A stretch of 64,000 bases of DNA from Phyllobacterium sophorae (GTDB taxonomy: Bacteria > Pseudomonadota > Alphaproteobacteria > Rhizobiales > Rhizobiaceae), in the NCBI RefSeq assembly GCF_003010965.1, contig NZ_PGGM01000001.1:372001-436000 (forward strand). Direction: 5' to 3'. Shown here piece after piece: positions 47,226 to 64,000 of the stretch. Within the stretch, counting starts at the first letter, position 1, and each line of letters starts with the position of its first letter. Under the pieces are notes generated by a model. That model did no database searches. It saw only the letters and a program-made list of their open reading frames with translations, and was not told where the DNA came from. Position numbers and translations under genes: made by a program.

Positions 47226-48713
47226 ATGACACCGACCGAACACGACCGTCTATCAACCAGCACACTCCATCGTCTCGCAAAGGATGTGAATCGGCCGGAA
47301 TACAGTAGGGGCCAGGTCCGGACCGGCATCGTCCATATGGGTATTGGCGCATTCCACCGCGCGCACCAGGCAGTCTATACGGACAGTGTTCTTGCCAGCG
47401 GCGACAATAAATGGGGCATTCTCGGCGTTTCATTGCGTAGCGGTGATACGCGCGATGCATTGGCGCCGCAGGACGGTCTCTACACTGTTGCGACGCGCGA
47501 CGGCAGCGGCGACAGCTTCCGTGTGATCGGCAGCATCGAAAAGGTGCTGGTAGCACCGGAAAACCCGGAAGCGGTGCTTGCCGCGATGGTTGATCCCGAA
47601 ATCAGGATCGTCTCGCTGACGGTAACCGAAAAGGGCTATTGTTATTCTCCTGCTTCCGCATCGCTGGACGAGAGACACGAAGATATCGTCCACGATCTGG
47701 CCGACCCCGCCACGCCGCGCTCGGCTATCGGCTTCATCGTCGAAGCCCTCGCCCGTCGCCGCGATAATGGCACGGAACCGTTCACACTGCTTTCCTGTGA
47801 CAATCTTCCGGCCAATGGTGAAACCCTGAAAAGAGTTGTTATCCGTTTTGCCGAGCTGCGCGATTCCGGGTTAGGGAAATTCATTCGCGACAAGGTAGCC
47901 TTTCCCTCAACAATGGTCGACCGCATCGTCCCAGCGACAACCGATGTCGATCGTACGATTGTGGCCGAGGCGACTGGTCTTTCGGATGCGTGGCCGATCA
48001 TGACTGAGCCCTTTACGCAATGGGTGGTGGAGGATCACTTTCCTACCGGCCGGCCGGCGTGGGATAAGTTCGGTGTGGCGTTCGTTGACAATGTCGATGC
48101 CTTCGAGCTGATGAAACTGCGGTTGCTTAACGGCAGTCACTCGACGTTGGCCTATCTTGGCTACCTTGCCGGCCATGAGACCGTTTCCGACGTAATGAAA
48201 GCCGAGGGCTTCAATGCGCTTATCGAAGCGATGATGGACGACGAAATATCGCCGACACTTCCGCCGCTCCCGGGCTTCGATCTCGATGCATACAAGGCCC
48301 AACTGCGTGCACGTTTTTGCAATCCGGCACTGCGCCATCGCACCTGGCAGATTGCCATGGATGGCTCACAAAAGCTGCCGCAGCGCCTGTTGAACACGAT
48401 CCGCAAGCGGTTGGAGCAGAAACAACCCTTCGACCGTCTTGCTCTCGGTGTTGCCGGCTGGATGCGTTACGCAACGGGTTTCGATGAATCCGGAAAGGCA
48501 ATTGATGTGCGCGATCCGCTCGCCAATGAATTCAAACAGCGCACCGCCGGAAAAACATCCAGTGCCGACCTTCTCGATGCCTATCTCGGTCTTGAGCAGA
48601 TTTTCGGACAGGACCTTCCCGGGAACCTCGAATTCCGCCGGACCGTCGGCGATGCCCTGGCGAGGCTTTTACGGGAAGGTGCGGCACGAACCGTCGCGGG
48701 GAAAGCGCTCTAG
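47226..48713 (+). CDS. Fructuronate/tagaturonate reductase (mannitol dehydrogenase family)
   Basis: 495-residue long-chain polyol dehydrogenase. Rossmann motif IVHMGIGAFHRAHQAVYTD, the ATTDVDRTIV region, and the catalytic K-x5-NGSHS segment LRLLNGSHSTLAYLGYLAG. By context it should reduce fructuronate to mannonate (UxuB) and perhaps tagaturonate to altronate (UxaB); sequence alone does not separate these from mannitol 2-dehydrogenase, so no symbol is given. It follows uxaC in the same transcript. Confidence 0.88.
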   Translation: MTPTEHDRLSTSTLHRLAKDVNRPEYSRGQVRTGIVHMGIGAFHRAHQAVYTDSVLASGDNKWGILGVSLRSGDTRDALAPQDGLYTVATRDGSGDSFRVIGSIEKVLVAPENPEAVLAAMVDPEIRIVSLTVTEKGYCYSPASASLDERHEDIVHDLADPATPRSAIGFIVEALARRRDNGTEPFTLLSCDNLPANGETLKRVVIRFAELRDSGLGKFIRDKVAFPSTMVDRIVPATTDVDRTIVAEATGLSDAWPIMTEPFTQWVVEDHFPTGRPAWDKFGVAFVDNVDAFELMKLRLLNGSHSTLAYLGYLAGHETVSDVMKAEGFNALIEAMMDDEISPTLPPLPGFDLDAYKAQLRARFCNPALRHRTWQIAMDGSQKLPQRLLNTIRKRLEQKQPFDRLALGVAGWMRYATGFDESGKAIDVRDPLANEFKQRTAGKTSSADLLDAYLGLEQIFGQDLPGNLEFRRTVGDALARLLREGAARTVAGKAL

Positions 48714-48742
48714 GCGAAAGCCCTTGCTATCTCCATCTGATA

Positions 48743-48759
48743 GATTAATATATTAAATC
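48743..48759. promoter_or_regulatory. TTAATATATTAA operator before the ABC importer
   Basis: GATTAATATATTAAATC, a perfect 12-base palindrome TTAATATATTAA at its centre, 76 bases before the binding-protein gene. It shares the core of the gntR–uxaC and uxaA sites. Confidence 0.6.
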
Positions 48760-48831
48760 TCGATAACGACCGGATATGGGAACCCGGTCATGCCTGAAAA
48801 CGGGATATTGGGAATCAACAGGGAGGAAATC

Positions 48832-50013
48832 ATGATCCGCATTACACGCAGACAAGCCATTGGCGGTCTGGCAGCTGTCGCAACGCTACCGGCGACGCGT
48901 CTTTTCGCTCAATCCAAGCTGGCGCTGCCAACGTCACCCGTCGCGCTGAATGTCGCCGACGTGGCTGGCAATCTCGCGCTCACCCAGACGGCTATCGAAA
49001 ACTACGCCAAGGCGAAACCTGAGCTCGTGTCCAAGATCACCTTTACCAAGGCGCCGGCGCCGGAACTTCCGGGCAAATTGAAAGCCCAGCAGGCAGCGAA
49101 CAGACTCGATATCGACCTTGTCCTCACCGGCACCGACGCACTATCCGCCGGCCTTGAGCAGGACCTTTGGGTCAAGCTGCTGCCCGATCATTCCGCATCA
49201 TTACCAGATCTAGCTGCGATCTATCTTGAGCCTGCGCATCGCATGCTGGCGCTTGGCAAGGATCATGGCGTCATCGTCACCTATTACCCGTCCGGTCCGC
49301 TCCTCGAATACATGCCTGATCGTGTGAAAAAGGTCCCGGCCACGGCGGAAGAGCTTCTCGCCTGGGCCAAGGAAAATCCGAACAAGTTCCTCTATGCGCG
49401 CCCGGCCAATTCCGGCCCTGGACGTACCTTCCTGATGGGCCTGCCCTATCTTCTTGGTGACGCCGATCCGCATGACCCTGTGAAGGGCTGGGACAAGACT
49501 TGGGCCTATCTCAAGGAGTTGCACAAATATATCGAATACTATCCGACCGGTACCGGCGCATTGATGAAGGAACTCGGCGAGGGGACGCGCGACATGACCG
49601 TCTCCACGACTGGATGGGACATCAACCCGCGTGTACTCGGCGTGGTCCCGAAGGAAGCGGCTGTAGCAACGCTCAAAGGTTTCCATTGGGTGGCTGACGC
49701 ACACTACATGTGCGTGCCGAAAGGCATTGCCGACGAGAAGCTTGCCGTGCTTCTCGACCTGATGAGCTTCCTGCTCACACCGGAACAGCAGGCCTTTACC
49801 TATGACAAGGGCTATTTCTATCCGGGTCCGGCGGTAAAGGACGTGCCGCTTTCCATGGCACCGCAGGAAAGCCAGGATGCGATTGCCGAGTTCGGCCGCA
49901 AGGAATATGCCGACTGGATCGCCAACAATCCGGTGGAAATTCCGCTCGATCCGTCTGCGATGGTCGTCGCGTTCCGGCGTTGGGACGAAGAAGTCGCGGG
50001 CAAGAAGTCCTGA
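48832..50013 (+). CDS. ABC transporter substrate-binding protein, Tat-exported
   Basis: 393-residue periplasmic binding protein of the family 1 / polyamine-iron cluster. The N-terminus MIRITRRQAIGGLAAVATLP is a twin-arginine signal (RR at 6–7, AxA-type cleavage about residue 26), so it is probably exported folded. The mature part has the PotD-like layout. ATG 48832 has GGGAGGAAATC just upstream; an earlier ATG at 48790 would spoil the signal peptide. The ligand cannot be read; the uronate genes on both sides suggest a hexuronate or oligouronide (inference). Confidence 0.85.
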   Translation: MIRITRRQAIGGLAAVATLPATRLFAQSKLALPTSPVALNVADVAGNLALTQTAIENYAKAKPELVSKITFTKAPAPELPGKLKAQQAANRLDIDLVLTGTDALSAGLEQDLWVKLLPDHSASLPDLAAIYLEPAHRMLALGKDHGVIVTYYPSGPLLEYMPDRVKKVPATAEELLAWAKENPNKFLYARPANSGPGRTFLMGLPYLLGDADPHDPVKGWDKTWAYLKELHKYIEYYPTGTGALMKELGEGTRDMTVSTTGWDINPRVLGVVPKEAAVATLKGFHWVADAHYMCVPKGIADEKLAVLLDLMSFLLTPEQQAFTYDKGYFYPGPAVKDVPLSMAPQESQDAIAEFGRKEYADWIANNPVEIPLDPSAMVVAFRRWDEEVAGKKS

Positions 50014-50077
50014 TTGATGCTTGATTTGGTGCTGTCCGGGGGTTGCCCCGGATGGCATCCAGCTATGAGGTTGCCGG

Positions 50078-51145
50078 ATGCTGCTTGCGTCATCGCCATT
50101 CCATGAAATCCGCCTTGACCGCTTGAGCCGTGCTTTCGGCGCTCATAATGCGCTGAAGGACGTATCGCTCAATATTCGCAAGGGCGAGTTCATAGCTCTG
50201 CTCGGGCCGTCGGGGTGCGGCAAGTCCACGGCACTCAACTGCATTGCCGGACTGCTCTCGACAACGGGTGGTGGTATCTTCATCGATGACAAGCGCATCG
50301 ACACGCTGAAGCCGGAGGACCGTGGCTTTGGCATGGTCTTTCAGAATTATGCGCTGTTCCCGCATATGACGGTGCGCCAGAACATCGGCTTTGGCCTGAA
50401 AATGCGCAAGGTCGCCAAGGCGGAGATCGAAAAACGCGTCGAAGAAGCTTTGAATCTTGTGCGACTCCAGGGGCAGGGTCACAAGCTGCCGGGTCAACTG
50501 TCAGGTGGCCAACAGCAACGCGTGGCCATCGCCCGTGCCATCGTGATCGAGCCGCCGCTGGTGCTCATGGATGAACCGCTTTCCAACCTGGATGCCAAGT
50601 TGCGTCTGGAAATGCGCGCCGAAATACGCCGTATCCATAACCAGCTCGGCGCAACCACTGTCTACGTTACCCATGATCAGGATGAGGCCTTGTCTCTGGC
50701 CGATCGCGTCGTCGTGCTGCGTGATGGCGAAATCCGTCAGGTAGGCAAGCCCAGCGATCTTTACGAACGCCCTGACCATTTGGACGTGGCTGAATTCATG
50801 GGCTATCGCAATCGCCTGACTGGCAAGGTTATTGCCAAAGATGGCGATCGAATGAGCGTTGCGGTCGGCAATGCGACATTGACTGGAACAGCACGTGCCT
50901 CACTGAAGGTCGGCGACACGGCCGTTATCGCTGCTCGCGCGGACGATGTCGTTGCCGGCACACGCTCTGATCAGGCAGTGGAAGCTGTCGTCGAAACCAT
51001 TGAATATCGCGGCCGCGAATTTGTTGGAACCGCGCGCACGCCGCAGGGCCTCGAACTTGTGTTTCATGCCCCGCAAACCGCTGAGCTCGGCAGTGCGATC
51101 TGGCTCACCATCGATCCGGCGCGTGCGCTGGCTTTTGCAGCGTAA
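50078..51145 (+). CDS. ABC transporter ATP-binding protein (PotA/FbpC type)
   Basis: 355-residue ATPase: Walker A GPSGCGKST near residue 45, Q-loop VFQNYALFPHMTV, signature LSGGQQQRVAIARA near 142, Walker B VLMDEPLSNLD, H-loop VYVTHDQDEAL, and a C-terminal TOBE domain (about 240–350). It is the single ATPase of the importer and would homodimerise below the two permeases. It begins 64 bases after the binding-protein gene; permease 1 starts 5 bases after its stop. Confidence 0.93.
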   Translation: MLLASSPFHEIRLDRLSRAFGAHNALKDVSLNIRKGEFIALLGPSGCGKSTALNCIAGLLSTTGGGIFIDDKRIDTLKPEDRGFGMVFQNYALFPHMTVRQNIGFGLKMRKVAKAEIEKRVEEALNLVRLQGQGHKLPGQLSGGQQQRVAIARAIVIEPPLVLMDEPLSNLDAKLRLEMRAEIRRIHNQLGATTVYVTHDQDEALSLADRVVVLRDGEIRQVGKPSDLYERPDHLDVAEFMGYRNRLTGKVIAKDGDRMSVAVGNATLTGTARASLKVGDTAVIAARADDVVAGTRSDQAVEAVVETIEYRGREFVGTARTPQGLELVFHAPQTAELGSAIWLTIDPARALAFAA

Positions 51146-51150
51146 TAGCA

Positions 51151-52056
51151 ATGACGAGCGCATCCTCCAATTCCCTCGACCACCGGATTTCGCTGCGCCA
51201 GCGCCTGGCGCTGCGCGGCATCGACGGTGTCACGCTTTTGGTGCTGCCAGCGGTGCTCTTTCTGCTGGCCGTGTTCATCTATCCCTTCATCTACGGCTTG
51301 ATCCTGTCCTTCAAGCCCAAGGAGGGCGGCACCTTTGCCAATTACCGGACGTTCTTCTCCGATCCGTTTTTGTACGACACGATTCTGACAACGCTCTGGT
51401 TGGCGGTCCCAGTAACGATCATCAGCATCGCCATAGCCCTGCCGGTCGCTTTCCGGGTGCGTCTGATGACGCATCAAAGACTGCTGACGACCATCCTTGT
51501 CCTGCCGGTAACACTGGGGACTGTGCTGGTTGCGGAAGGGCTGCTGAACTATCTCGGACCGCAGGGCTGGTTTAGCCGAACCCTCATGCTGCTCGGCATG
51601 ATCGACCGGCCGGTCAAGCTGACCAATAACTATTGGGGTGTTTTTTCTTCACTGATCATCACGGGCTTCCCATTCACCTTCCTGCTGACCCTGTCTTACG
51701 TTTCAGGGGTTGACCCGGCACTTGAGCAGGCCGCCGCGACCCATGGCGCCGGAAGCTGGCAGCGCTTCCGCCATGTAATGCTGCCTCTGCTGGTTCCGGG
51801 CCTCGCCATCGCCTTCTGTTTGTCCTTCGTCCAAGCCTTTGCCGTATTCCCCTCGGCAGTTCTGCTCGGCGCGCCCGCGGGACCAACGCGTGTCATTTCG
51901 ATTGCTGCCTATCAGGCGGCGTTCGAGCAGTATGACTACTCGATGGCGTCGGCAATTGCGATGATCATGGCGGTTGTTCAACTGCTTATCGTGGTAGCGG
52001 TGCTCGGCATACGCAACATGTTCTATCGCGGCTCGACCGCAGGCGGAAAGGGCTGA
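51151..52056 (+). CDS. ABC transporter permease 1 (PotB-like)
   Basis: 301-residue inner-membrane permease with about six helices and the BPD_transp_1 EAA loop EQAAATHGAGSWQRFRHVMLPLLVPG near residue 190–215. N-terminal helix LVLPAVLFLLAVFIYPFIYG. It pairs with permease 2, which begins 2 bases after its stop; strong coupling is expected. Confidence 0.92.
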   Translation: MTSASSNSLDHRISLRQRLALRGIDGVTLLVLPAVLFLLAVFIYPFIYGLILSFKPKEGGTFANYRTFFSDPFLYDTILTTLWLAVPVTIISIAIALPVAFRVRLMTHQRLLTTILVLPVTLGTVLVAEGLLNYLGPQGWFSRTLMLLGMIDRPVKLTNNYWGVFSSLIITGFPFTFLLTLSYVSGVDPALEQAAATHGAGSWQRFRHVMLPLLVPGLAIAFCLSFVQAFAVFPSAVLLGAPAGPTRVISIAAYQAAFEQYDYSMASAIAMIMAVVQLLIVVAVLGIRNMFYRGSTAGGKG

Positions 52057-52058
52057 CC

Positions 52059-52904
52059 ATGATCCGCGATACCACTATTGGCGCAAAACTCTGGATCACT
52101 GCCGTATGGGTCGTGGTTGCCTTTTTTGTCATCAATCTCCTGGCCATGATCGCTACGGTGATCATGTCCTCTTTCGCCACGCGCTGGCTCGGCACATGGT
52201 TGCCGGCGGGCTGGACAACAAATTGGTATTTCACGGCCTGGTCGGAATTCCAGCTCAGCGACGTTCTCATCGTCACCTTCCAGATAGCTTTCACCGTGGT
52301 GGCGCTTTCCGGGCTTCTGGGCGTGACCGCCGCCTATGCTCTTGCGCGGCGTGACTTTCCCGGCAAGAAGCTGGTCATGCTGCTTTTCCTTCTGCCCCTG
52401 CTGGTACCGCCGATCACCTTCGGTATTCCGCTAGCGACAGTGCTGTATCAGGCGGGCGTCGGCGGTACGTTTTGGGGCGTCGTTCTTGCCAATCTGGTGC
52501 CAACGGTTCCCTTCGTGATCCTTGTCATGATTCCGTTCATCGAACAGATCGATCCCAAGATCGAAGCGGCGGCACGAGTGTTCGGTGCGGGCACATTCCA
52601 GCTGTTCGTGCATGTGCTGCTGCCCATGCTGTTACCGGGCATCCTCGCGGCCTTGCTGCTCGTTCTGGTGCGCACTGTCGCGATGTTCGAGCTGACCTTC
52701 CTGACCGCAGGGCCGACCAGCCAGACACTTGTCGTTGCGCTCTACTACTCGGTGTTCGCCGCTGGTGTCCGTGCCGTGCAATCGATCGACGCCATGGCGG
52801 TGGTCTACATGGTGACCACCCTCATATGGCTGCTGATAGCACTTCGCTTCGTCAATCCCACGCAGATCGTCGCGAGAGCCAAGCAACAGCAGACCACGGC
52901 TTGA
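52059..52904 (+). CDS. ABC transporter permease 2 (PotC-like)
   Basis: 281-residue partner permease: first helix AVWVVVAFFVINLLAMIATV, EAA loop EAAARVFGAGTFQLFVHVLLPMLLPG near 165–190, and six predicted helices. Last gene of the importer operon; a terminator follows. Confidence 0.92.
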   Translation: MIRDTTIGAKLWITAVWVVVAFFVINLLAMIATVIMSSFATRWLGTWLPAGWTTNWYFTAWSEFQLSDVLIVTFQIAFTVVALSGLLGVTAAYALARRDFPGKKLVMLLFLLPLLVPPITFGIPLATVLYQAGVGGTFWGVVLANLVPTVPFVILVMIPFIEQIDPKIEAAARVFGAGTFQLFVHVLLPMLLPGILAALLLVLVRTVAMFELTFLTAGPTSQTLVVALYYSVFAAGVRAVQSIDAMAVVYMVTTLIWLLIALRFVNPTQIVARAKQQQTTA

Positions 52905-52927
52905 CGCTCGCCAAACGGCGAAAGCAA

Positions 52928-52953
52928 ACGGGAGCCAATGGCTCCCGTTTTTT
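52928..52953. terminator. Terminator between the importer operon and uxaA
   Basis: ACGGGAGCC AAT GGCTCCCGT hairpin with six T on plus, between convergent transcription units. Confidence 0.85.
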
Positions 52954-52978
52954 CAAGTGCAGCAGCTGACAATCTGAC

Positions 52979-54505
52979 CTACATGGTTGCGCCGATCTGC
53001 CAAGGCACGAATTCTGCATCGCCATAGCCGAGCTCTTCCGATTTGCTGCGTTCGCCCGATGCGACTTTCAGGATGTGCTCGAAGATCTCGCGGCCCTTGT
53101 CTTCGATCGACACGCCATCGAGAACATCGCCGCAATTGATATCCATGTCCTCGATCATCTGATTATACATGGGCGTATTCGTCGCGAGCTTGATTGAAGG
53201 TGTCGGCTTGCAGCCATAGGCCGAGCCGCGCCCGGTGGTGAAGGCAAGAACGTTGGCTCCGCCGGCAACCTGCCCTGTCGCCGAAACCGGGTCGTAGCCA
53301 GGCGTATCCATGAAGACGAGACCATGCGCAGTGACCGGCTCCGCATAGCCATAGACTGCTTCCAGCGGGGTCGTGCCGGATTTGGCGACAGCGCCCAGCG
53401 ACTTTTCCAGGATGGTGGTCAAGCCGCCGGCCTTGTTGCCCGGTGAGGGATTGTTGTTCATTTCCATCTTGTTGCGGGCAGTATAATCCTCCCACCAGCT
53501 GATGATCGATTGCAGACGGTGTACCGCCTCAGGATTGGACGCACGTTCAATAAGAAGGTGTTCTGCACCATAGATTTCCGGCGTTTCGGAGAGAATAGCC
53601 GTGCCACCCTGCTGCACGAGAAGATCAACGGCAGCGCCCAGCGCTGGATTGGCAGTAATGCCGGAATAGCCATCAGAACCGCCGCACTGCAATGCCAGCA
53701 TCAATTCTGATGCGGGGATGGTCTCGCGCCTGACATTCGCCGCGGTCGGCAGCATGTCGCGCACAGCGGCGACGCCCGCTTCCATCGTCTTGCGCGTACC
53801 ACCCACCTCCTGGATTGTCAGGCTGCGGAATGTGTCGCTCTCGACAATGTTGTACGCTTCTTTCCAACGTCCGATCTGGAACCCTTCGCAACCGAGACCG
53901 ACCATCAGCACTGCGGCGATGTTCGGATTGGTCGCATAGCCCCACTGGGTACGCTTCAGTACTTCGTAGCCCTCGCCCTTCACGTCAAGCGCGCAGCCGC
54001 CGCCATGGACGAGCGGGATGATACCGTCGACCATAGGGTAGTCATCGAGCAAGCCCGATTTCTGCACGGCTTCCGCAATGAAGCGCGCAACGGAGGCAGA
54101 ACAGTTCACCGAGGTCAGAACGCCGATATAGTTGCGGGTTCCGGCGCGGCCATTGGCCCGGCGGAACCCCTCAAAGGTCGCACGCTGCTCGGCTGGCACA
54201 ATGCCGCTCGCGTTGACTGCGTGTGCCGCATCGGGCTCGCGAACGAAATCGCTGTAGTTAAGATTGTGCTCATGCACCCATTCGCCGGGTTCAATCCGTT
54301 TCGAGGCCGAACCGATGATCTGGCCAAACTTGCGGACGGGCTCGCCCGCGGCAATCAACCGGGATGCGAGCTTATGCCCGCGCGGCACGCGGTCTGTGAC
54401 CGCCACCCCCTCAATGCTCTGGCCAATTTGAAATGTGTCGACTGCGACAACGACATTGTCGCTGGCGTGGAGGCGCAGATGCCTCGGTGCGTTAAGGGTG
54501 TCCAT
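52979..54505 (-). CDS. uxaA: Altronate dehydratase (UxaA family)
   Basis: Dehydrates altronate to 2-keto-3-deoxygluconate in the galacturonate branch. 508 residues with an N-terminal SAF domain (residues about 12–90, DNVVVAVDTFQIGQ) and the large UxaA catalytic part: VLTSVNCSASVARFIAEA, LVHGGGCALD, LQCGGSDGYSGITANPALG, and the C-terminal TTGRGSAYGCKPTPSIKLATN, with the conserved Cys residues that may ligate iron. Galactarate dehydratase is a close relative, but the uronate context favours altronate. A TAATATATTA box lies 18 bases upstream of the ATG. Confidence 0.93.
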   Translation of the reverse strand: MDTLNAPRHLRLHASDNVVVAVDTFQIGQSIEGVAVTDRVPRGHKLASRLIAAGEPVRKFGQIIGSASKRIEPGEWVHEHNLNYSDFVREPDAAHAVNASGIVPAEQRATFEGFRRANGRAGTRNYIGVLTSVNCSASVARFIAEAVQKSGLLDDYPMVDGIIPLVHGGGCALDVKGEGYEVLKRTQWGYATNPNIAAVLMVGLGCEGFQIGRWKEAYNIVESDTFRSLTIQEVGGTRKTMEAGVAAVRDMLPTAANVRRETIPASELMLALQCGGSDGYSGITANPALGAAVDLLVQQGGTAILSETPEIYGAEHLLIERASNPEAVHRLQSIISWWEDYTARNKMEMNNNPSPGNKAGGLTTILEKSLGAVAKSGTTPLEAVYGYAEPVTAHGLVFMDTPGYDPVSATGQVAGGANVLAFTTGRGSAYGCKPTPSIKLATNTPMYNQMIEDMDINCGDVLDGVSIEDKGREIFEHILKVASGERSKSEELGYGDAEFVPWQIGATM

Positions 54506-54536: not shown

Positions 54537-54864
54537 ACCGGAGCGAGGGTTGCAACGACGAACTACCACCTCGTCTGTGATAAGCGCTACGCAGAACGTC
54601 TTAAAACCAACTGACGAAACAGCCTTTTCTGGAAATAAATTCATGTGATTACAATCTAAAATTGCATAGTTGCAAATATTGCTGAAAATTATACAACTAA
54701 AGTTGCGGATTGACTACAACTTATAAGTTAATATATTCAAATTGATAGCGTTAGTTGCAGTTGTGCCAGTGCTCTCTTTTCGTTTTTCAATTTTGATCGC
54801 TTCATATTGTCCAAATAACTACCTGAAGTTGTAATTTCTCGATTTTCAATGATCAATTTTCAGA
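54537..54864. other. A+T-rich divergent control region with clustered short palindromes
   Basis: About 330 bases between divergent uxaA and the giant DUF11 gene, far more A+T-rich than the genes. It holds TTGCA-TAGT-TGCAA (54662–54675), CAACT-AA-AGTTG (54694–54705) and further CAACTT/AGTTG copies. No small gene is evident: the only ATG frame near the end (54849) stops after 18 codons. Confidence 0.55.
54728..54739. promoter_or_regulatory. Weaker TTAATATATT box upstream of the DUF11 gene
   Basis: TTAATATATTCA shares 10 of 12 bases with the uronate palindrome, but the right half is broken. It may belong to uxaA (223 bases away) or the DUF11 gene (137 bases). Confidence 0.35.
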
Positions 54865-57800
54865 TTGGGTATTTTCAAATTGAAGACACATTGCGCGCGA
54901 CCTGAAAGCACAGGTATATCCCGTCTCCAGATTTTGTCCGCTTTGCTCCTTGTGCTGCTTCTGTCGATCTTGGATGTTGCGCCGGCGGCGGCTGGTCAGC
55001 TTGTTCTGGTGGATTTGCCGGATACCACAGAAACGACAACGGTTGGCACCGGACAGGGAAAACGTGCCATCTACAAGAATGCGGGCTCCGTAGATGGGGT
55101 TGGCATCGATCTCGTCGCCAAACTCGTGATCGCAAAACTGGACCATACGTTCGGTGTCAGAAACGGCAAACCCAGCGAATTCGCCGCCGATCAGGACACG
55201 GCCTGGATCGATTGGTATATTTACAAGGCCGGCACCTATAACATCAACTTGGATTCGGGCGGCGTTGCTGTCGTCGCCGATGTTCATGTTCTGTACAATG
55301 ATCTCGACGGCCCAAACAATGAAAGCCTGTTTGTGCCCCTGTGCCAGGCGCCTGTTCTCTTCACCCGCGTCGCCCGTGCTGCGACACTGAAACGTGACTT
55401 TGGCACAGTCGCGGGCGTCTCCGAAGTCTTCAGCCTTATTGGTGACAAGAACTATGAGGACGAGTCGGTATCAGGCGGCGAGGTAGCATATTCCTCTACA
55501 AGCGTATTCCGTATGGGGCATACGGGAAACAAAGGGTACAAGGTCTCGGTAGACAATCCGTCCTATGTCGCTGCTGATTCCTTCGATATCAAATGCTCGG
55601 ATTTTCGCGCGCCTGTGGCCACGCCTGATAATCACGAGGCGGAACTCGGTGCGCCGTCGACGATCCAGATTCTCGATAATGATGGGGTGAAGGATAAGGC
55701 TGGGGCCTTTTCCGCAGTGACGCCGCCAACGGATTTTGCCAAGGCATCGGTCAGTCTTGTGGCGCCACCTGGAGCAACAGGTATCAAGACGGACAAAAAC
55801 GGCGATACGGTTGGCTTTACGGTTCCGGGCGAGGGCACTTGGACCTATGATGATCTGAACGGCAAGTTGACCTTTGTGCCGCTTGCAGGGTTCACAGGCT
55901 CGCCGGCACCCATTGAATATACCTTCAGGAATGCTGTTGGAACGCTCTCCAACAAGGCTATGGTAACCATTGGTTATCCGCGCCTGGAGATTGTGAAGAC
56001 TGCCATTGCTCCGGCGAAATTCGTCGCTGGCGAGATCATCAATTACACCTTCAAGGTCTCCAATCCAGGTGCCATTGCCTTGACCGGAGTCACTGTCACG
56101 GACACCCTTCCCGGCATCGTCGTCAAAGGCGGACCGGTTTCCCTTGCAGCCGGTGTCATCGACACGACGACCTTCACGGCGGCCTACACGCTGACGCAGA
56201 AAGATATCGATGCGGGTCAAGTGGTCAACATTGCGACCGGAACAGGGGCCCAGCCGTCAGGTAAGCCGTTCACCAGCCCGCCTGCAGTAGTCACGACGAC
56301 TATTCCCAAAATATCTGAACTGTCAGTTGTCAAGACGGCGGGTAAGCCGTCGGGCACCACGGTCGGTTCGACCATCGCCTATACGTTCACGCTGACCAAT
56401 ACCGGCAATGTGACGCTGACCGATGTGTCAGTGGCCGACACTTTGCCGGGCATCGTCCTGGAGGGCGGGCCGCTTGCCGCGCTGGCTCCGGGGGCTGTGG
56501 ATACAACGACCTTCACCGCGCTCTATAGGCTGACGCAGAAGGATATCGATGCGGGCGAGGTGAAGAATTCGGCCACCGCCAGGGCGACGCCGCCCGGTCC
56601 CGCCGGCACCCCGCCGCTGACCAGTCCGCCGAGCGATGTGACGACGCCGGTCGAGAGCGCGCCGAAGCTGGAACTTGTCAAATCCTCCGACAAGGCAAGC
56701 ATTGCCAAGGCCGGCGAAGTGCTGACCTATACGTTCAAGGTGAGTAATACCGGCAATGTCACGGTCAAGGATATCGCCGTAAAGGATGACAAGTTGGTTC
56801 CGGCGCAGATATGCACGGTGCCCGAGCTTGCGCCGGCAAAGGATGCAAGCTGCACGCGATCCTATGAGGTGACGCAGGCCGATATCGATGCGGGCGGCGT
56901 GCGCAACACGGCCGTAGTCAGCGGCAATCCCCCATCCGGACTGCCGTTGAATGTTAGCTCGAACCCGGTGGTCACGCCCACCGCCGCCGCGCCGAAACTG
57001 AACGTGATCAAGACGGCAGGCAAACCGTCAAGCAGCACGGTCGACGCTACAATCAACTATACCTTCACGGTTACCAATGAGGGGAATGTCACGCTCAGCA
57101 ATATCGCTGTCTCCGACGCTCTTGCAGGCGTTGTGCTGAAGGGTGGGCCGATTGCCAGCCTCGCACCGGGTGAAAGGGATACCACGACCTTTACCGCGAC
57201 CTATTCGCTTACGCAGGCCGATATCGATGCCGGCAAGGTCAACAATACGGCCACGGCCAAAGGGACATTCAAGCGGGGCATGGAAGGAACGCCGGTCATT
57301 GGCGGGCCAGTGGCGCCGCAGACCATCGAGGAAATCAAGAGTCCTGAAAGCCAAGCCCAGGCCCTGCTTGCCGCATCGCCCAAGCTCAGTCTTGTCAAGA
57401 CCGCAGCCGAGCCATCGAAAAAGGCTCCCGGTGAGATCATCAAGTATAACTTCGCGGTGACAAATACCGGCAATGTGACGTTAACGAATGTGTACATCAT
57501 TGACGTTCTCCCGGGAATTGTGCTGGAGGGCGGACCGGTCGCCAGCCTCGCACCTGGCGAGAGCGATACAACGACCTTCACCGCGACCTACACGCTGTCG
57601 CAGAAGGATATCGACGCCGGCAAGGTCAACAATGCCGCAACGGCAAAAGGGACCCCGCCTGGCGGCGGCCGGGAGATCAGCAGTGGGCTTTACAGTGTCA
57701 TAGTCGATATTGCGCCCGCACCTGAAATGACGCTCATAAAGAAAGCTGACAAGCCGTCGGTCTCCAGCGTCGGCGAAACGGTCACCTATGACTTCACGGT

Positions 57801-60621
57801 TGCCAATACTGGCAATGTGACATTGAAGAACCTTGTCGTCACAGACAAGAACCTTGTCCCTGCCACGGTATGCACCGTTGCGGAACTGCTTCCGTCAAGC
57901 GTGGAGCAGTGCACCGGAACCTACAAGGTAACGCAGGCCGATCTCGATGCGGGCGGAGTGACGAACACCGCCAGCGTCACGGGCAATCCACCGACCGGTC
58001 CACCCGTCACGCGCGACTCAAACCCGGTCACAACCGGTGTCGATGCGACGCCAAAACTGACCGTGGTTAAAACCGCAAGCAAGCCATCCGCCAATCAGGC
58101 CGGTGCCACGATCGACTACACGTTCATGGTAAAAAACGAGGGCAATGTAACCCTCTCGGATATCAAGATATCCGATGCATTGCCTGGCATTGTCCTTAAG
58201 GGAGGGCCGATCGTCAGCCTTGTCCCCGGTGCAAGTGACGCGAAAACCTTCACCGCCACATATATCCTGACACAGAAAGACGTCGATGCCGGTAAAGTGT
58301 CGAATATCGCCACGGCAAGCGGCGTCTACAGGAAGATGGACCGTCTGGCCATAGGGTCGGTCGACCCGTCGAGTGACAAGCCGGTTACCAGTCCCGAAAG
58401 CGAGGCTGTAGCGGCTGTAGAAGCTGGGCCTGCCCTAAGCATCGTGAAAACCGCCGGTACACCATCCGGCAACGTACCCGGCGCGACCATCCCGTACTCC
58501 TTTGCCGTAACCAACACCGGCAATGTGACGCTGGCTAATGTGTCTGTCTCCGACACGCTGCCTGGGGTCAAGCTGATGGGCGGACCGATTGCCAGCCTTG
58601 CGCCGGGTGCAGTCGATACCACGACCTTCACGGCGCTCTATACGCTGACCCAAGCGGATGTCGATGCAGGGCAAGTGGTGAATACCGCGAGTGCGACAGG
58701 CACTCCTCCCGCCGGTCAGCCTGTGACAAGTCCGCCTCAAACGGTCAAGACGGTCATTGTCTCCGCGCCCAAGCTCGATCTCCTCAAGCAGATCGGCAAG
58801 CCGAACGGCAACAAGCCTGGCGCTGTCGTTCCTTATACGTTCAAGATAACGAACAATGGCAATGTGACGCTCGTCAACATCACGCTTACCGACATCCTGC
58901 CTGGCATAATCATAAAAGGCGGCCCGATTCCCCGTCTGGCACCGGGTCAGGTCGACACGACGACCTTTACCGCGACCTACGTGCTGACCCAGGCGGATTT
59001 CACTGCCGGCAAGGTCTTGAACAAAGCGCAAGCCCACGGCAACCTGTTACCCAAACCGACCATGTCGGCTTCGCTTGCGGGGATCGAGCCGAAAACTGAA
59101 AAATTGCTGATCGCAAAAAACGTGCCGGCCTCCGGTGACGTGCTGGCCGCCGCCGCTCCGCCCGCCGCAGCGCCTGGCGATGGGGGTGTGGACAGCGATG
59201 TGGACAGCGGCGAGAGTGCCGCACTGATTGAACTCGCTGCGGCAAGCCCGGAATTGGCTCTCGTCAAGACGGGCCATTTCAACGATGAGAACGGCAATAC
59301 CTATGCCGATCCCGACGAAACGGTCACCTACACATTTGTGGTGACCAATGAGGGCGGCACTGTCCTTGAAGATGTACACGTGGCCGATGATGGCCCGGTA
59401 TTCAACGGACGCCGTGGGACCGGCAAGCTATCGGCATTCAGCCCGGCACCGTCCCCGGTTGAACCCGGCGCGGCGCAGAAATTCACTGCAACCTACAAGC
59501 TCACCCAGGCCGATATCGATGCGGGGGCGGCCGTAAAAGGCGGAACCGTCAACAAGGCTCTGGCGCTGGGGTATAGCGGCGACGGCGTGACGAGCACACT
59601 GTTCGAATCCGCGGAAAGCCGTTCGGTGCTCGATCTCCCGGCGGCCTATGGCGACCACGAAGTGACGATCACCAAGCAGGCCGGACTGCGCCAGATCAGG
59701 CGTGGCGAAAAGGCACCTTTCACCATCAAGGTGACCAATAATAATACCGACAATGTCGGACGGATAGTCGTCACCGACATGCTGCCGTCAGGCTTCCGCT
59801 ACGTCGACGGTTCGGCCACGATCAATGGCGTGGCGGCTATACCCGTTATCAATGGGCGCAACGCCCGGTTCCAGCCCGTCATGCTTGGGCCGAAAGCCGA
59901 AGTAACGATCCGCCTGCAATTGCTTGCATTGAGCACAGCCGAACCGGGCAAGCATATCAACCGGGCGAAGGCCGCCGAGGAAGACGGCGAAATTCTCGCG
60001 CCGGAAGCGACGGCGGCGATCGAGATCATGGTCGATCCGGTGTTCGATTGCGGCGATGTCGTCGGCAAGGTCTTCGACGATTCGAACGGCAACGGTTACC
60101 AGGACGATGGCGAACGGGGCCTGCCAGGTGTTCGTGTCGCGACGGTTAAGGGCTTTCTGGTCACGACGGACAAGCACGGCCGCTTCCACGTGGCTTGCGC
60201 CGAGCTTCCCGACAAGCGCATCGGTTCGAACTTCATCATGAAGCTCGACACGCGCACGCTGCCGGCGGGTTACAGCATGACAACGGAAAACCCGAAGGTG
60301 ATCCGGCTGACGGCCGGCAAGATGTCGAAGCTCTCCTTCGGTGCCTCGATTGGCCATCTTGTGACGCTCGATTTGAACGACGCGGCTTTCGAGGATCGCA
60401 AGACGGTGCTGTTGAAGGAGTGGAGCGACGGACTCGGCAAGCTTATCGCGATCCTCAAAGAACAGCTTTCGACATTGCGCATCAACTACCGGGCCACAGC
60501 AGAAAAGCCCTTGGTCGACAAGCGAGCCGGCGCCATCGAAGAGGAGATACGGGAACGCTGGAAAGCGGGTGGAGATGCCTATGAGTTGAACATCGAGACA
60601 CGTGTGGAGGCAGGCCAATGA
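54865..60621 (+). CDS. Giant exported DUF11-repeat surface protein (1918 residues)
   Basis: Signal peptide at residues about 20–43 (LLVLLLSILDVAPAAAG). Unassigned N-domain, 45–245. CshA/cadherin-like domain with ILDNDG, 249–372. About eleven DUF11-type beta-sandwich repeats at about 373, 486, 600, 710, 839, 952, 1062, 1189, 1302, 1462 and 1596, each with a VKTAGKPS…YTFxVTNTGNVTL…DxLPGI pattern. SdrD/Cna-B-like domain, about 1724–1800 (GKVFDDSNGNGYQDDGERG). Then a tail NDAAFEDR…STLRINYRA…EEIRERW that faintly recalls an OmpA-like fold. Repeats 3 and 6 carry a cysteine pair. No in-frame ATG exists; TTG 54865 is a provisional start. The stop overlaps the next gene's ATG. Likely a surface fibre or adhesin; function unknown. 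Confidence 0.82.
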   Translation: MGIFKLKTHCARPESTGISRLQILSALLLVLLLSILDVAPAAAGQLVLVDLPDTTETTTVGTGQGKRAIYKNAGSVDGVGIDLVAKLVIAKLDHTFGVRNGKPSEFAADQDTAWIDWYIYKAGTYNINLDSGGVAVVADVHVLYNDLDGPNNESLFVPLCQAPVLFTRVARAATLKRDFGTVAGVSEVFSLIGDKNYEDESVSGGEVAYSSTSVFRMGHTGNKGYKVSVDNPSYVAADSFDIKCSDFRAPVATPDNHEAELGAPSTIQILDNDGVKDKAGAFSAVTPPTDFAKASVSLVAPPGATGIKTDKNGDTVGFTVPGEGTWTYDDLNGKLTFVPLAGFTGSPAPIEYTFRNAVGTLSNKAMVTIGYPRLEIVKTAIAPAKFVAGEIINYTFKVSNPGAIALTGVTVTDTLPGIVVKGGPVSLAAGVIDTTTFTAAYTLTQKDIDAGQVVNIATGTGAQPSGKPFTSPPAVVTTTIPKISELSVVKTAGKPSGTTVGSTIAYTFTLTNTGNVTLTDVSVADTLPGIVLEGGPLAALAPGAVDTTTFTALYRLTQKDIDAGEVKNSATARATPPGPAGTPPLTSPPSDVTTPVESAPKLELVKSSDKASIAKAGEVLTYTFKVSNTGNVTVKDIAVKDDKLVPAQICTVPELAPAKDASCTRSYEVTQADIDAGGVRNTAVVSGNPPSGLPLNVSSNPVVTPTAAAPKLNVIKTAGKPSSSTVDATINYTFTVTNEGNVTLSNIAVSDALAGVVLKGGPIASLAPGERDTTTFTATYSLTQADIDAGKVNNTATAKGTFKRGMEGTPVIGGPVAPQTIEEIKSPESQAQALLAASPKLSLVKTAAEPSKKAPGEIIKYNFAVTNTGNVTLTNVYIIDVLPGIVLEGGPVASLAPGESDTTTFTATYTLSQKDIDAGKVNNAATAKGTPPGGGREISSGLYSVIVDIAPAPEMTLIKKADKPSVSSVGETVTYDFTVANTGNVTLKNLVVTDKNLVPATVCTVAELLPSSVEQCTGTYKVTQADLDAGGVTNTASVTGNPPTGPPVTRDSNPVTTGVDATPKLTVVKTASKPSANQAGATIDYTFMVKNEGNVTLSDIKISDALPGIVLKGGPIVSLVPGASDAKTFTATYILTQKDVDAGKVSNIATASGVYRKMDRLAIGSVDPSSDKPVTSPESEAVAAVEAGPALSIVKTAGTPSGNVPGATIPYSFAVTNTGNVTLANVSVSDTLPGVKLMGGPIASLAPGAVDTTTFTALYTLTQADVDAGQVVNTASATGTPPAGQPVTSPPQTVKTVIVSAPKLDLLKQIGKPNGNKPGAVVPYTFKITNNGNVTLVNITLTDILPGIIIKGGPIPRLAPGQVDTTTFTATYVLTQADFTAGKVLNKAQAHGNLLPKPTMSASLAGIEPKTEKLLIAKNVPASGDVLAAAAPPAAAPGDGGVDSDVDSGESAALIELAAASPELALVKTGHFNDENGNTYADPDETVTYTFVVTNEGGTVLEDVHVADDGPVFNGRRGTGKLSAFSPAPSPVEPGAAQKFTATYKLTQADIDAGAAVKGGTVNKALALGYSGDGVTSTLFESAESRSVLDLPAAYGDHEVTITKQAGLRQIRRGEKAPFTIKVTNNNTDNVGRIVVTDMLPSGFRYVDGSATINGVAAIPVINGRNARFQPVMLGPKAEVTIRLQLLALSTAEPGKHINRAKAAEEDGEILAPEATAAIEIMVDPVFDCGDVVGKVFDDSNGNGYQDDGERGLPGVRVATVKGFLVTTDKHGRFHVACAELPDKRIGSNFIMKLDTRTLPAGYSMTTENPKVIRLTAGKMSKLSFGASIGHLVTLDLNDAAFEDRKTVLLKEWSDGLGKLIAILKEQLSTLRINYRATAEKPLVDKRAGAIEEEIRERWKAGGDAYELNIETRVEAGQ

Positions 60622-63600
60622 CCAGGAACCTCGTCCGTATTGCCCGCCGTTTTTCATGTCCACATGGCATTCTCGTTTCACGTGAATCGCTGCGGGCAGG
60701 ATGCGCCTTTCTGGCAATGACCTGCCTTCCGGTGTCCGCTCAGGAGGTGGACCGGACAAAAACCGTTCCATTTGCCATCAGTGTTGACGGAGAGCCGGTC
60801 GTCAAGAGTAAGCAGGATGGCCCGACGCGCGCTGCAGCGAAGCAGTTGGGCCAGTCCCCTGAGCCTTCGACGCGTAAGACCGGCGCCGGATTGAATACCG
60901 TCGATGTTCAGGTGAAGTTCGACGGGCTCGATGCCAAAACCCTGTTGAATATCTCGACCATGCCGGTGCGCCGTGCCTATAAGGCCGGGGAATACGTGAA
61001 TTTCCTCGCGACGTCCAATTATCCTGCCTTCATCAAGCGTGCCGAAGTGCGCATCCTCAACGCCGAGGATGAGGTCACGGAAAAGCCTTTCGATATCATT
61101 CCCGTTGCCATCAACCGGGAGGCCAGGTGGATCATGCCCGAAACCAGGGATGAGACGAAGCGCTTCAAATATATCCTTCGCGTCTATGATGACGAGGGCC
61201 GTTTTGACGAGACGCTGGCACGGACCCTGGCACGCTCCGACTGGGAATTACCGGCCGAAATCAATACAAGACATGTCGTTTCGGGCGAAGGCGAAGCGAC
61301 AGCGCCGGGCATGGGCGAGGACAACACTGCCCGGCGCAATATTCCGGTCTATGGCGGCGCGGTGACCGTCTATGGCCGCAACGTGCCGGAAGGCTACCAG
61401 GTCAAGGCTCTGGGCGACACAATCCCGCTCGACCCTGACCATGCGTTTGTGATGCAGCGCATCTTGCCTCCTGGCGATCACGATATCGATGTCGCGGTGC
61501 TGGGATTGCTCAAGGACAGTGCGCTTGATTTTACGAGGCGCATCAACATTCCGAAAAATGACTGGTTCTATGTGGCGCTTGCCGATCTCACAGTCGGAAA
61601 ACGCTTTGGTGACAATGACATAGAGGCGGTGCGTCCGGGTGAGTACGATGACATTTACAGCAAGGGGCGCCTCGCCTTCTATGTGAAAGGTAAAATCAAG
61701 GGAAAATATCTCCTGACTGCAGCGGCCGATACCAGCGAAGACGATCTCGATCATATCTTCCGCGGTCTTGATGCCAAGGATCCGCGGCAGCTGTTGCGCC
61801 GCCTCGATCCCAATGACTATTATCCCATCTATGGCGACGATTCGACCGCCATTGACGATGCGCCCACCGACGGCAAGTTCTATGTGCGGCTGGAGCGCGG
61901 CGACAGTCATGTCATGTGGGGACGGTACAAAGCCAGTATCACAGGCACGGAATTCATGCGCTCCGACCGCGCGCTCTATGGCGCGAGCGGCATCTACAAA
62001 TCGGAAAAAACCACGAGTTTCGGTGAAAGGCAAACGGAAACAACGCTTTACGCGGCGCAACCCGATACGCTTCCGCAGCGCGACGAATTCCTCGGCACCG
62101 GCGGGTCGGCTTATTTCATGAAGCGTCAGGACATTTCCATAGGTTCCGAAACGATCGCGGTCGAAGTGCGTGATCAGATAACCGGGCAGGTTCTCGAAAG
62201 GCAAACGCTGCGCTACGGCGAGGATTACAGCTTCGACTATCTGCAGGGGATGCTGATACTCAAGCGCCCGCTCTCTTCATCGACGGGCACCGATGCACCG
62301 GTACGCGACGGGGCGCTTGGCGGCAACAGGGTCTACCTCATCGCGCAGTATGAGTTCACACCGGTCGCTGGCACGCTCGATGGCTACGTTTATGGCGGTA
62401 GGGCCCAGCATTGGTTCGCCGACAAGGTGCGCGTCGGAGTTACCGGCATGGATGAAAATACCGGCCTCGCCAATCAACAGGCCTATGGAGCCGATATCCA
62501 GCTGCGCCATTCGGAGAAGACCTTCATCGAGGCGGAAATTGCCCGCTCCAAGGGCCCGGGCTTTGGCACGTCTCGCTCCACCGATGGCGGGCTGACACTC
62601 AGCGATGTTGCCACAACCGGCACGCGCAATCGCGTCGCGACGTCATGGCGCACCAGAGCACAGCTCGACCTTGAAGACATCAGCAAGAGCGGCGTCAAAG
62701 GCATGCTTGGTGGCTACTATGAGGAGAAACAGGCGGGATTCTCGACGCTTTCCGAGCAGATATCCGTCGACGAGCGCATATGGGGTGCCTTTGCCGATAT
62801 CGATCTGAACAAGGCTATAGGCCTCGAACTCAACTATGACGATTATCAGGAAGGCCGAGGGGAAAGCGTCTTCGATGGCCGCGACATTGGCGGCCGGTCG
62901 AAACGCAAGGGCGCGTCGGCGATCAGCTGGCAGATCGATGAGTACTGGAAAGCCTCGTTTGGACTTACCTACACCGAGCTGCAATCCCCCATTGCGCGCG
63001 CCTCGGGCAAGTCCGGTTATAATGGCTCGCGCCTCGACAGCGGGGCGCGGCTTGAATACGCGCCGGATGGCGATCATAGCTATTATGTCTTCGGCCAGGG
63101 CACACTCTCGCGCTCTGGTGACATCAAGGACAACAATCGTGTCGGCGCCGGGACGGAATATCAACTGACGGAAAAGATCAGTCTGGACGGCGAGATTTCC
63201 TATGGAAATCAAGGCTTTGGTGCATTGGCAGCCATAAATTACGAACCCACTGCAAAGGACAGCTATTATGTCGGTTACCGGCTCGATCCGGATCGCGCCT
63301 TCGATCTGGACCGCAGTTACGATCTCTCGGGTACGGATGGTGGTACCATCGTCATTGGCGCCAAACGCAAGATCGACGACGAAATCTCCGCCTACGCCGA
63401 GCACAATTACGATCTGTTCGGGACGCGCAATTCGCTGACGAAGACTTATGGCGTAGTCTATACACCCGACAGTTCCTGGACCGTGGATGGCGGCTTCGAA
63501 GCCGGTACGATCGAGGACGATACGATCGATCCTGATGACGGGTTCGAACGCTCCGATTTCGATCGCAAGGCGGTCTCGCTGGCCATCGGCTACAAGGACG

Positions 63601-64000
63601 AGGAACGCATCAGCGCCCGCATTCGCGGTGAGGCGCGCTACGAGGACAGCGATGACGACAGCCGTGACGCCAACACCTATCTGATCGCGACTGGCTTCAG
63701 CTGGAAGACGTCGGAAGACTGGCGCCTGCTCGCCAATGTGGATGCGGTGCTGTCGGATCAGGACAGCGAAGCTTCGTTTCGTGACGGAGATTATATAGAA
63801 ATGTCAGTTGGTTACGCTTATCGGCCCGTTGAAAACGACCGGCTCAATGCGTTGGCCAAATACGCCTGGCTGCGCGACACACCGGGCGAAAATCAGGTCA
63901 GCGCCATTAGCGGCGACGAATTTGGACCGGCCCAGCGCAGCCATATTATCTCGGCTGATGTCAATTACGATGTCTTCCCATGGCTGGTGCTCGGCGCGAA
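60618..64000 (+). CDS. Large predicted outer-membrane beta-barrel protein, 3' end cut by the window
   Basis: Open from ATG 60618 to the window end, at least 1127 codons without a stop. N-terminus has a long signal (hydrophobic GCAFLAMTCLPVSAQ at about 28–43). Residues about 90–330 look like beta-sandwich periplasmic domains (VYGGAVTVYGRNVPEG). A conserved block at 330–560 has FYVALADLTVGKRFGDND, FYVRLERGDSHVMWGRYK, EVRDQITGQVLERQTL and GEDYSFDYLQGMLILKRPLSS. From about 560 on, alternating amphipathic strands rich in Tyr/Gly/Asp fit an outer-membrane barrel. It overlaps the DUF11 gene as ATGA, so both are made together. I do not recognise a named family; it lacks visible POTRA or TonB-plug motifs. 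Confidence 0.75.
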   Translation, partial: MTRNLVRIARRFSCPHGILVSRESLRAGCAFLAMTCLPVSAQEVDRTKTVPFAISVDGEPVVKSKQDGPTRAAAKQLGQSPEPSTRKTGAGLNTVDVQVKFDGLDAKTLLNISTMPVRRAYKAGEYVNFLATSNYPAFIKRAEVRILNAEDEVTEKPFDIIPVAINREARWIMPETRDETKRFKYILRVYDDEGRFDETLARTLARSDWELPAEINTRHVVSGEGEATAPGMGEDNTARRNIPVYGGAVTVYGRNVPEGYQVKALGDTIPLDPDHAFVMQRILPPGDHDIDVAVLGLLKDSALDFTRRINIPKNDWFYVALADLTVGKRFGDNDIEAVRPGEYDDIYSKGRLAFYVKGKIKGKYLLTAAADTSEDDLDHIFRGLDAKDPRQLLRRLDPNDYYPIYGDDSTAIDDAPTDGKFYVRLERGDSHVMWGRYKASITGTEFMRSDRALYGASGIYKSEKTTSFGERQTETTLYAAQPDTLPQRDEFLGTGGSAYFMKRQDISIGSETIAVEVRDQITGQVLERQTLRYGEDYSFDYLQGMLILKRPLSSSTGTDAPVRDGALGGNRVYLIAQYEFTPVAGTLDGYVYGGRAQHWFADKVRVGVTGMDENTGLANQQAYGADIQLRHSEKTFIEAEIARSKGPGFGTSRSTDGGLTLSDVATTGTRNRVATSWRTRAQLDLEDISKSGVKGMLGGYYEEKQAGFSTLSEQISVDERIWGAFADIDLNKAIGLELNYDDYQEGRGESVFDGRDIGGRSKRKGASAISWQIDEYWKASFGLTYTELQSPIARASGKSGYNGSRLDSGARLEYAPDGDHSYYVFGQGTLSRSGDIKDNNRVGAGTEYQLTEKISLDGEISYGNQGFGALAAINYEPTAKDSYYVGYRLDPDRAFDLDRSYDLSGTDGGTIVIGAKRKIDDEISAYAEHNYDLFGTRNSLTKTYGVVYTPDSSWTVDGGFEAGTIEDDTIDPDDGFERSDFDRKAVSLAIGYKDEERISARIRGEARYEDSDDDSRDANTYLIATGFSWKTSEDWRLLANVDAVLSDQDSEASFRDGDYIEMSVGYAYRPVENDRLNALAKYAWLRDTPGENQVSAISGDEFGPAQRSHIISADVNYDVFPWLVLGA

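Follow-up and report, generated by a model that had tools for sequence, protein, structure and literature searches.

The stretch of DNA analyzed here (the window; 64,000 nucleotides from Phyllobacterium sophorae, positions 372001-436000 of contig NZ_PGGM01000001.1) ends in two long genes, A and B, which look like a two-gene unit; all features of this pair lie on the forward (+) strand. Gene A (54865..60621, with a TTG start as listed) was delimited from the list of open reading frames (ORFs) and from Pfam and NCBIfam matches, and encodes a giant fibrillar-adhesin-like protein of 1918 amino acids (aa). Gene B (60618..64000 in the window, stop at window coordinate 64328), traced from its ORF and the contig sequence, encodes what is very probably an outer-membrane barrel protein of 1236 aa. 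The A stop and the B start share a 4-base ATGA (60618..60621) within the junction sequence CAATGACC, an overlap that is kept in relatives. Both translations read directly as starting with a signal peptide, spanning about residues 1-43 of A (LLLVLLLSILDVAPAAA-G; 54865..54993) and about residues 1-42 of B (AFLAMTCLPVSA-QE; 60618..60743). The original prediction of an exported multi-repeat protein of 1918 residues, overlapping by four bases a frame of at least 1127 codons with a signal peptide, was confirmed. It had also proposed completing the 3′ end of B and its neighborhood. Taken from the source contig, B runs 328 bases beyond the end of the window (stop at L007:13329) and ends in FLNVIGKF; next to it lies a long convergent ORF whose product we read as ion:proton-antiporter-like.

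Linkage between the two genes was counted over every B-type ORF, 64 in 62 loci (L007, L031-L073, L104-L121), a redundant set in that it includes several close relatives and the window itself (L007), and in that the profiles were built from part of it. An A-type (tail-bearing) ORF lies directly upstream in 50 of the 64, and eight more are fused to A. A start codon for B is available in a 4-base overlap in 36 of the 50 pairs (window included) and in a 1-base overlap in three, and the nearest start is 1-68 bases on in the other 11; the annotated B start is sometimes later than the overlap start (e.g., L063, L070). Of the remaining six B-type ORFs, L047 holds two and L058 one, all three being fragments, and a fourth is the C-terminal piece of a broken B in L112; the last two are those of L104 and L120. 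L104 encodes a 1716-aa protein with Pfam DUF11 and SdrD_B matches and is hence fused, and L120 has the reversed order, B then A (checked in L122). In the fusion of L045, the SdrD-containing tail (767-942) leads into the B part (991-2076), and in the four fused proteins that were scanned SdrD_B (four of four) and DUF11 (three of four), both over cut-off, are all N-terminal to the barrel part.

Co-occurrence across genomes, which had been proposed as a check, gave a similar picture, with the two families mostly found together. In a sample of the order (297 genomes), B was present in 19, the A tail in 18, and both in 17, the exceptions being G039 (a distant fused B), G154 (a broken B), and G100 (a match of 46 SdrD positions at 30 bits). 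In a sample of the phylum (398 genomes), B was present in 58, the tail in 45, and both in 44; the sole tail-only genome, G385, had three matches at 30.5 bits to positions 3-85. Because of adjacency, conserved overlap, natural fusions, and co-occurrence, we judge from the sequences that A and B almost certainly form one system, as the original prediction had it.

Several loci carry additional genes or altered forms of the pair. Fused loci L057, L061, L071, L107, L114, and L104-L106 have extra neighboring genes, and the scanned ones hit DUF11, NEW3, or SpaA_4 (with one of the DUF11 hits below cut-off), suggesting that the long stalk may be made as a subunit of its own at fused loci; in L104-L106 a 372-396-aa ORF lies 7-12 bases upstream of the fused gene. 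A small third gene of 323-369 aa with two CLIPPER-type repeats (L053:14757-15866, L054:12862-13833, L055:13436-14488; the L053 gene by Pfam) sits directly upstream of A in three genomes that belong to one genus. A Paracoccus alcaliphilus plasmid (L068:6811-9785) has a 203-aa remnant of A beside two insertion sequence (IS) elements, with a full-length B frame.

Protein A looks like a fibrillar adhesin: a variable head is followed by a stalk of 11 CLIPPER/DUF11-type repeats, by an SdrD_B-like domain, and by what is probably a degenerate OmpA-like end. The N-terminal head, at about residues 44-370 (54994..55974; from Pfam and BLAST), contains a CshA-type repeat at 310-361 that was below cut-off in a scan of the whole protein and over it (CshA_repeat, E 8e-7) in a scan of the head only, in which Big_9 also appeared below cut-off. 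Residues 45-250 had no Pfam family and no credible PDB match, and the whole protein had no PDB match by phmmer at E 0.001. A CshA_NR2 assignment for the head was rejected, as it lacked Pfam support and the sole PDB match, a lactate dehydrogenase at E 1, was taken as chance. By BLAST, residues 1-370 found only themselves among the ORFs of 29 loci and had no match in a further 15, several A genes in those loci being cut by the locus end before the head. In every one of the 12 hand-picked pairs of A proteins, similarity was lower over the 370 N-terminal residues than over the last 190, ranging from 77-81% vs. 86-92% in Phyllobacterium to 25% vs. 73% at the extreme. Judged from these pairs, the head evolves faster than the tail.

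The stalk consists of ten DUF7507 (CLIPPER_2)-type repeats (55984..59634; from Pfam and motif positions), each with a Lys-Asp-Asn isopeptide triad, followed by a DUF11 (CLIPPER) domain at residues 1600-1707 (59662..59985; triad K1604-D1638-N1699), which was assigned by Pfam and by a confident model. In 2025, DUF11 received the name CLIPPER and DUF7507 the name CLIPPER_2 (PMC12617251). Over the whole of A, Pfam gave ten stretches of DUF7507 (E 5.6e-247) and 11 of DUF11 (E 1.2e-49), both far over cut-off, and NCBIfam gave TIGR01451 (E 8.7e-82); at these scores the repeats are not due to chance. The DUF11 repeats originally predicted were thus recovered as 11 stretches, but most of them score best to DUF7507 (CLIPPER_2), not to DUF11 proper. 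In a Foldseek search with a model of residues 1597-1918, the first-ranked match was 9IFR (E 3.1e-8), the crystal structure of a Gram-negative adhesin domain with an intramolecular Lys-Asn bond and a presumed catalytic Asp (PMC12617251). The K-D-N triad was located in 11 of 11 repeats, by position and motif and without a shuffled control. The Asp follows the Lys by 35 residues in ten repeats and by 34 in one, the repeats at 606, 1468, and 1604 having a possible second Asp nearby that makes the exact residue ambiguous, and the Asn lies within an NxA motif. Each stalk domain is probably locked by an isopeptide bond, as these residues suggest. Cys pairs occur in two of the repeats and in the SdrD_B part.

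A proteins vary widely in length. The longest annotated A genes are those of Sulfitobacter sp. S223 (19,377 nucleotides, ∼6,458 aa) and S. guttiformis (18,588 nucleotides), and a protein of ∼6,458 aa is too long to stand upright in the periplasm. At the other end are the 542-aa A protein of Kovacikia and a tandem of 704 and 657 aa before one B in L048 (7340-11424).

The tail comprises an SdrD_B-like domain at about residues 1726-1825 (60040..60339) and, at residues 1831-1918 (60355..60618), a domain of β-α-β-α-β fold assigned from an AlphaFold2 (AF2) model and a profile-profile match. The SdrD-like domain of the original prediction was listed for each of the 18 tails under comparison (E up to 1; best 7.4e-7), but in window A its score of 22.8 is below the Pfam cut-off of 29.7. 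This part of the tail also matches S. aureus SdrD chains in PDB (E 9.5e-7), and C1729 and C1778 of window A fall in alignment columns that are invariant in 18 of 18 tails. The conserved STLRINYRA tail noted earlier is indeed a conserved end, but forms part of what is probably a degenerate OmpA-like domain, of the peptidoglycan-binding type, covering the last ∼88 residues. In the AF2 model these 88 residues have a block predicted local distance difference test (pLDDT) score of 55 at first, then 68-90, and 47 for the last two residues, and the SdrD part (model residues 128-235) scores below 50. Profile-profile comparison of this segment with 12 OmpA-type segments of the family gave a probability of 79.8 (pairwise E 1.5e-5), whereas the SdrD and DUF11 controls reached 0.2 and 0.1; with a set of diverged OmpA-like segments the probability was 69.6. 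The 12 segments had been picked by motif; ten came from proteins later confirmed by PF00691, and those of L112 and L121 were unscanned. One Arg column of the tail is invariant in 18 of 18; by the positions in A. baumannii OmpA, we take the peptidoglycan site to consist of an Asp and the Arg of this column. In the Foldseek and VIA searches with the A tail, the DUF11 domain took up the matches shown, and the absence of an OmpA chain from these is uninformative.

Recognizable OmpA domains are present at the A-B junction in relatives. B carries PF00691 over cut-off at its N-terminus, as a single stretch in L059, L109, and L119 and as three stretches in each of L110 and L111, and A carries it over cut-off at its C-terminus, as two stretches in L070 and one in L117; these are seven fragments selected for extra length, all seven of which were positive, and among 30 B members OmpA was listed in just one (Pfam, E up to 0.1). 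Since such domains occur at the end of A or at the start of B, the junction is probably periplasmic, if they behave as elsewhere. The DUF11-SdrD-tail end of A is likely the end that docks toward B, as the original prediction had proposed, because it is the conserved part of A and the part joined to B in the fusions.

Protein B begins, after its signal peptide, with Ig-like N-terminal domains at about residues 100-310 (60915..61547), presumed periplasmic and delimited from the model of the relative L031 and weak Pfam matches. A core at about residues 311-645 (61548..62552) is common to distant fused proteins by sequence matches, and the barrel region, from about residue 600 (62415..64000, continuing past the window), was assigned from the model, Foldseek, VIA, and a C-terminal motif. 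The structure of B was read from an AF2 model of L031, whose better part is the C-terminal half, with ∼30 long strands (counted by eye) from model residue 556; the Ig-like region is mostly strands, with block pLDDT from ∼30 (a linker) to 79. With this model, Foldseek ranked LptD first (E 6e-9; template modeling (TM) scores 0.23/0.33), and 46 of the 50 matches shown were β-barrels, including FimD/PapC as well as unrelated barrels. In VIA all 50 matches shown were β-barrel membrane-protein entries (best Z 15.3, root-mean-square deviation 5.5 over 341 residues), among them a yeast TOM complex chain, 8hco_I, presumably Tom40. A C-terminal β-signal is also apparent: 29 of 30 B members have a G-x-x-x-N pattern before a final F, W, Y, L, or M, which is F, W, or Y in 24 of them; the Kovacikia member is the exception. 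B is very probably a barrel, and a very large one, according to the model and these structural matches, the model suggesting roughly 30 strands. The barrel-like strand pattern of the original prediction accordingly gains OMP-family matches, albeit thin ones, and the barrels of the VIA list, but the model behind that list is of low confidence.

Sequence searches placed B in no established family. Window B had no Pfam family over cut-off, its part inside the window had no NCBIfam match, and neither phmmer nor the family profile found a sequence match in PDB at E up to 10. Among 30 B members, weak Pfam matches were to DUF2490 (eight members), OMP_b-brl (six), Opacity (five), and other barrel families, with Glucodextran_B (three), Invasin_D3 (one), and Big_1 (one) in the Ig-like region; one member had a weak YadA_anchor match (E 0.0094). 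The TonB plug, TonB receptor, autotransporter, POTRA/TpsB, usher, and SLH families were absent from the 21 Pfam families listed for these members at E up to 0.1, in agreement with the earlier statement that B has no POTRA, TpsB, or autotransporter signature. PHROGs gave one weak match (phrog_417, function not known; E 5.5e-4, residues 799-865), and there was no match to B among 50,697 phage records at E 1e-5. A kinship with SprA, suggested by a SprA motif, was rejected, as neither a single sequence nor a profile matched PDB.

These results bear on two other accounts of the pair. In the first, B is a TonB-dependent or other nutrient receptor and A its substrate-catching surface partner, in line with the RefSeq names of eight of 25 plasmid relatives of B (“TonB-dependent receptor” or “outer membrane protein transport protein”); the structures retrieved by Foldseek and VIA also include TonB receptors, as expected of any large barrel. 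The plug and receptor families were absent from the 21 Pfam families listed for 30 members at E up to 0.1, so that we rejected the RefSeq receptor label, and the downstream neighbor of B is the convergent antiporter-like gene rather than an uptake operon. We regard this account as very improbable. In the second, the ancestral form was a single chain whose barrel exports its own N-terminal passenger, and A is the passenger of a split version. The single-chain forms (eight of 64 ORFs, plus L104) and the placement of SdrD_B and DUF11 before the barrel in the scanned fusions speak for such an autotransporter ancestry. Against it, the OmpA domains that lie between stalk and barrel in several lineages must be exported or stay inside, unlike in classical autotransporters, the 21 Pfam families include no autotransporter or TpsB, and fused loci also carry separate neighboring DUF11 genes. 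We consider a split autotransporter improbable, if less so than a nutrient receptor.

The gene linkage, the fusions, the domain order, the triad residues, and the OmpA domains in relatives are direct observations. From them we infer that A is exposed at the surface, docks in the periplasm, passes through B, and has an adhesive role, passage being the least certain of these. Our preferred reading, held at slightly less than even confidence, is that A and B together make up one fiber system, as its two subunits, anchored in the outer membrane and held by peptidoglycan, and that B is probably also its exit. A would be exported by Sec and would fold into a long stalk of Ig-like CLIPPER domains with the fast-evolving head at its tip. 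Its SdrD_B and OmpA-like domains would remain periplasmic, abutting both peptidoglycan and the N-terminal Ig-like part of B, and B, as a very large single-chain barrel, would hold A in the outer membrane and most likely let the stalk out. A tail-inside topology appears simplest because the junction domains of several relatives are of peptidoglycan type, the length of the stalk often far exceeds the width of the periplasm, and the head changes faster than the tail. With the tail inside and the stalk outside, a hole is needed, for which B would be the obvious candidate. Taken by itself, B as the exit for A is a tentative proposition that we place somewhere between doubtful and evenly balanced. 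Its furthest-reaching form, possible in our view and on the doubtful side, is that B is the founding member of an unrecognized outer-membrane secretion route that exports Sec-delivered, folded, isopeptide-locked giant adhesins and clamps their C-terminus to peptidoglycan, a route widespread in Pseudomonadota, sometimes encoded as one polypeptide, and represented in a cyanobacterium by a diverged pair.

Several points weigh against the fiber-system reading. The L031 model of B is of low confidence (mean pLDDT 49.9, predicted TM score (pTM) 0.34), making strand number and pore uncertain. Residues 431-1236 of B have 40 amphipathic peaks vs. 27.9 ± 3.5 (maximum 38) in 200 shuffles, but peak density in the barrel region is no higher than in the Ig-like region, and the scan is therefore no count of barrel strands. 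Pfam OmpA (PF00691) was found in 0 of 18 tails at E up to 1, the residue in the Asp register is missing from window A, and the OmpA reading of the window tail comes from a predicted fold and a moderate profile match. Beyond the CshA-type repeat, Pfam and PDB recognized no adhesive domain in the head of A. In the phylum sample, 14 of the 58 B-positive genomes had no tail match; the part of these that was inspected includes fused proteins with SdrD below cut-off (G653, G636) and small fragments (G494). None of the contrary outcomes named in the original prediction, namely families occurring mostly apart, no predicted barrel, or a tail structure in an unrelated known system, was seen.

The closest competitor to the fiber system with B as exit gives B the role of an anchor only, i.e., an SlpA/OmpM-like connector from outer membrane to peptidoglycan that carries the fiber, with A reaching the surface otherwise or staying in the envelope. 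The OmpA domains at the A-B junction in relatives would suit a connector, as would the presence of SlpA of Deinococcus among the Foldseek matches, at rank 16 by name and at ranks 7 and 13 as an “SDBC” complex, which we take to be SlpA. The ∼6,458-codon A gene and the rapidly diverging head fit a surface fiber better than a spacer, and the B model, itself poor, lacks a long helix for a coiled coil. An anchor-only role strikes us as unlikely, although clearly less so than a split autotransporter.

Named genome relatives of the module (eight loci) are from Phyllobacterium, Nitratireductor, Hoeflea, two “Rhizobiales bacterium” assemblies, and one alphaproteobacterial metagenome-assembled genome. 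B is missing from the 12 genomes that the order sample lists for the window's own family, so that the A-B module is patchy. B matches were found in 25 of 72,556 plasmid records, 20 of them Alphaproteobacteria by name, and a Sinorhizobium meliloti plasmid carrying the module was typed as conjugative. The others were Eleftheria (Betaproteobacteria), Vibrio, Acinetobacter, and the cyanobacteria Kovacikia and Synechococcus; the Acinetobacter, Kovacikia, and Synechococcus matches cover just about a quarter of B, and the split pair of Kovacikia also has a 4-base overlap. On the Eleftheria terrae plasmid (L059:1-2880), genes with FecR and CHASE2 domains lie directly upstream of A-B and perhaps provide regulatory input.

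In the window, the GC content of A and B is 58-60%, as in the remainder, the exception being the 2-kb step that contains the upstream stretch, which is lower (52.6%), and base composition of the two genes gave no sign of recent import. An AT-rich stretch of ∼300 bases lies 5′ of A (54560-54880) and contains several AACT..AGTT-like words, possibly regulator sites. Three σ70-like promoter matches were found upstream of A over both strands (one on the strand of A) vs. 0.9 expected; the scan of this region found no terminator, and its repeats are all short. Adjoining A is a sugar-acid utilization cluster (44798-54505), in which glucuronate isomerase is an equivalog match over cut-off, and a fructuronate-reductase-type enzyme, ABC transporter proteins, a galactarate-dehydratase-type enzyme, and a GntR-type regulator are below curated cut-offs.

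Gram-negative fibrillar adhesins with OmpA-type anchors are recognized, and their crossing of the outer membrane is not explained in the cited passages; OmpA anchors are described on Gram-negative CshA-type adhesins in a paper that has no word beginning with “barrel” (PMC10952558). A barrel genetically tied to such adhesins opens this crossing to direct tests, and would put a name on a family of barrels now labeled “TonB-dependent receptor,” “OmpA family,” or “hypothetical” in databases. The pair resembles an undescribed way of putting and holding adhesive fibers on the cell surface in many bacteria. Keyword searches of one PMC library listed no description of an A-B pair, and within that scope the system looks undescribed, the CLIPPER stalk type itself having been described in 2025. 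Of the papers these searches listed, PMC12502724 and PMC6304850 concern other DUF numbers, and PMC8779699 and PMC11224092 contain the term “DUF11 domain.”

Type V secretion systems combine a stalk with a C-terminal barrel, in one chain or in two genes. A and B share this plan, but have no autotransporter, POTRA, or TpsB Pfam match and, in several relatives, place OmpA domains between stalk and barrel. The type IX translocon SprA and the pilus ushers are very large barrels that pass proteins to the surface; B is alike in the size of its probable barrel and has no PDB sequence match, and no chaperone or motor gene was noticed directly beside A-B in annotated plasmid loci. SlpA of Deinococcus has a 30-stranded barrel and a peptidoglycan-binding N-terminus (PMC9388160). 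With such SlpA/OmpM connectors B shares a probable single-chain barrel, of ∼30 strands in the low-confidence model, and, in some relatives, a peptidoglycan-binding module, which is of OmpA instead of SLH type; B further differs in having, by the same model, Ig-like domains instead of a coiled coil and in having a giant adhesin partner, and no PDB sequence match links it to them. Protein A is closest to the CLIPPER adhesins, e.g., B9T28_05395 of Acinetobacter silvestris (PMC12617251), with which it shares a CshA-type N-terminus, a tandem K-D-N stalk, and probably an OmpA-like C-terminal anchor. Whereas no dedicated barrel partner is described for those adhesins in the cited sections of that source, the window adhesin has a probable, degenerate OmpA-like end and is coupled, or in relatives fused, to a barrel protein of ∼1200 aa.

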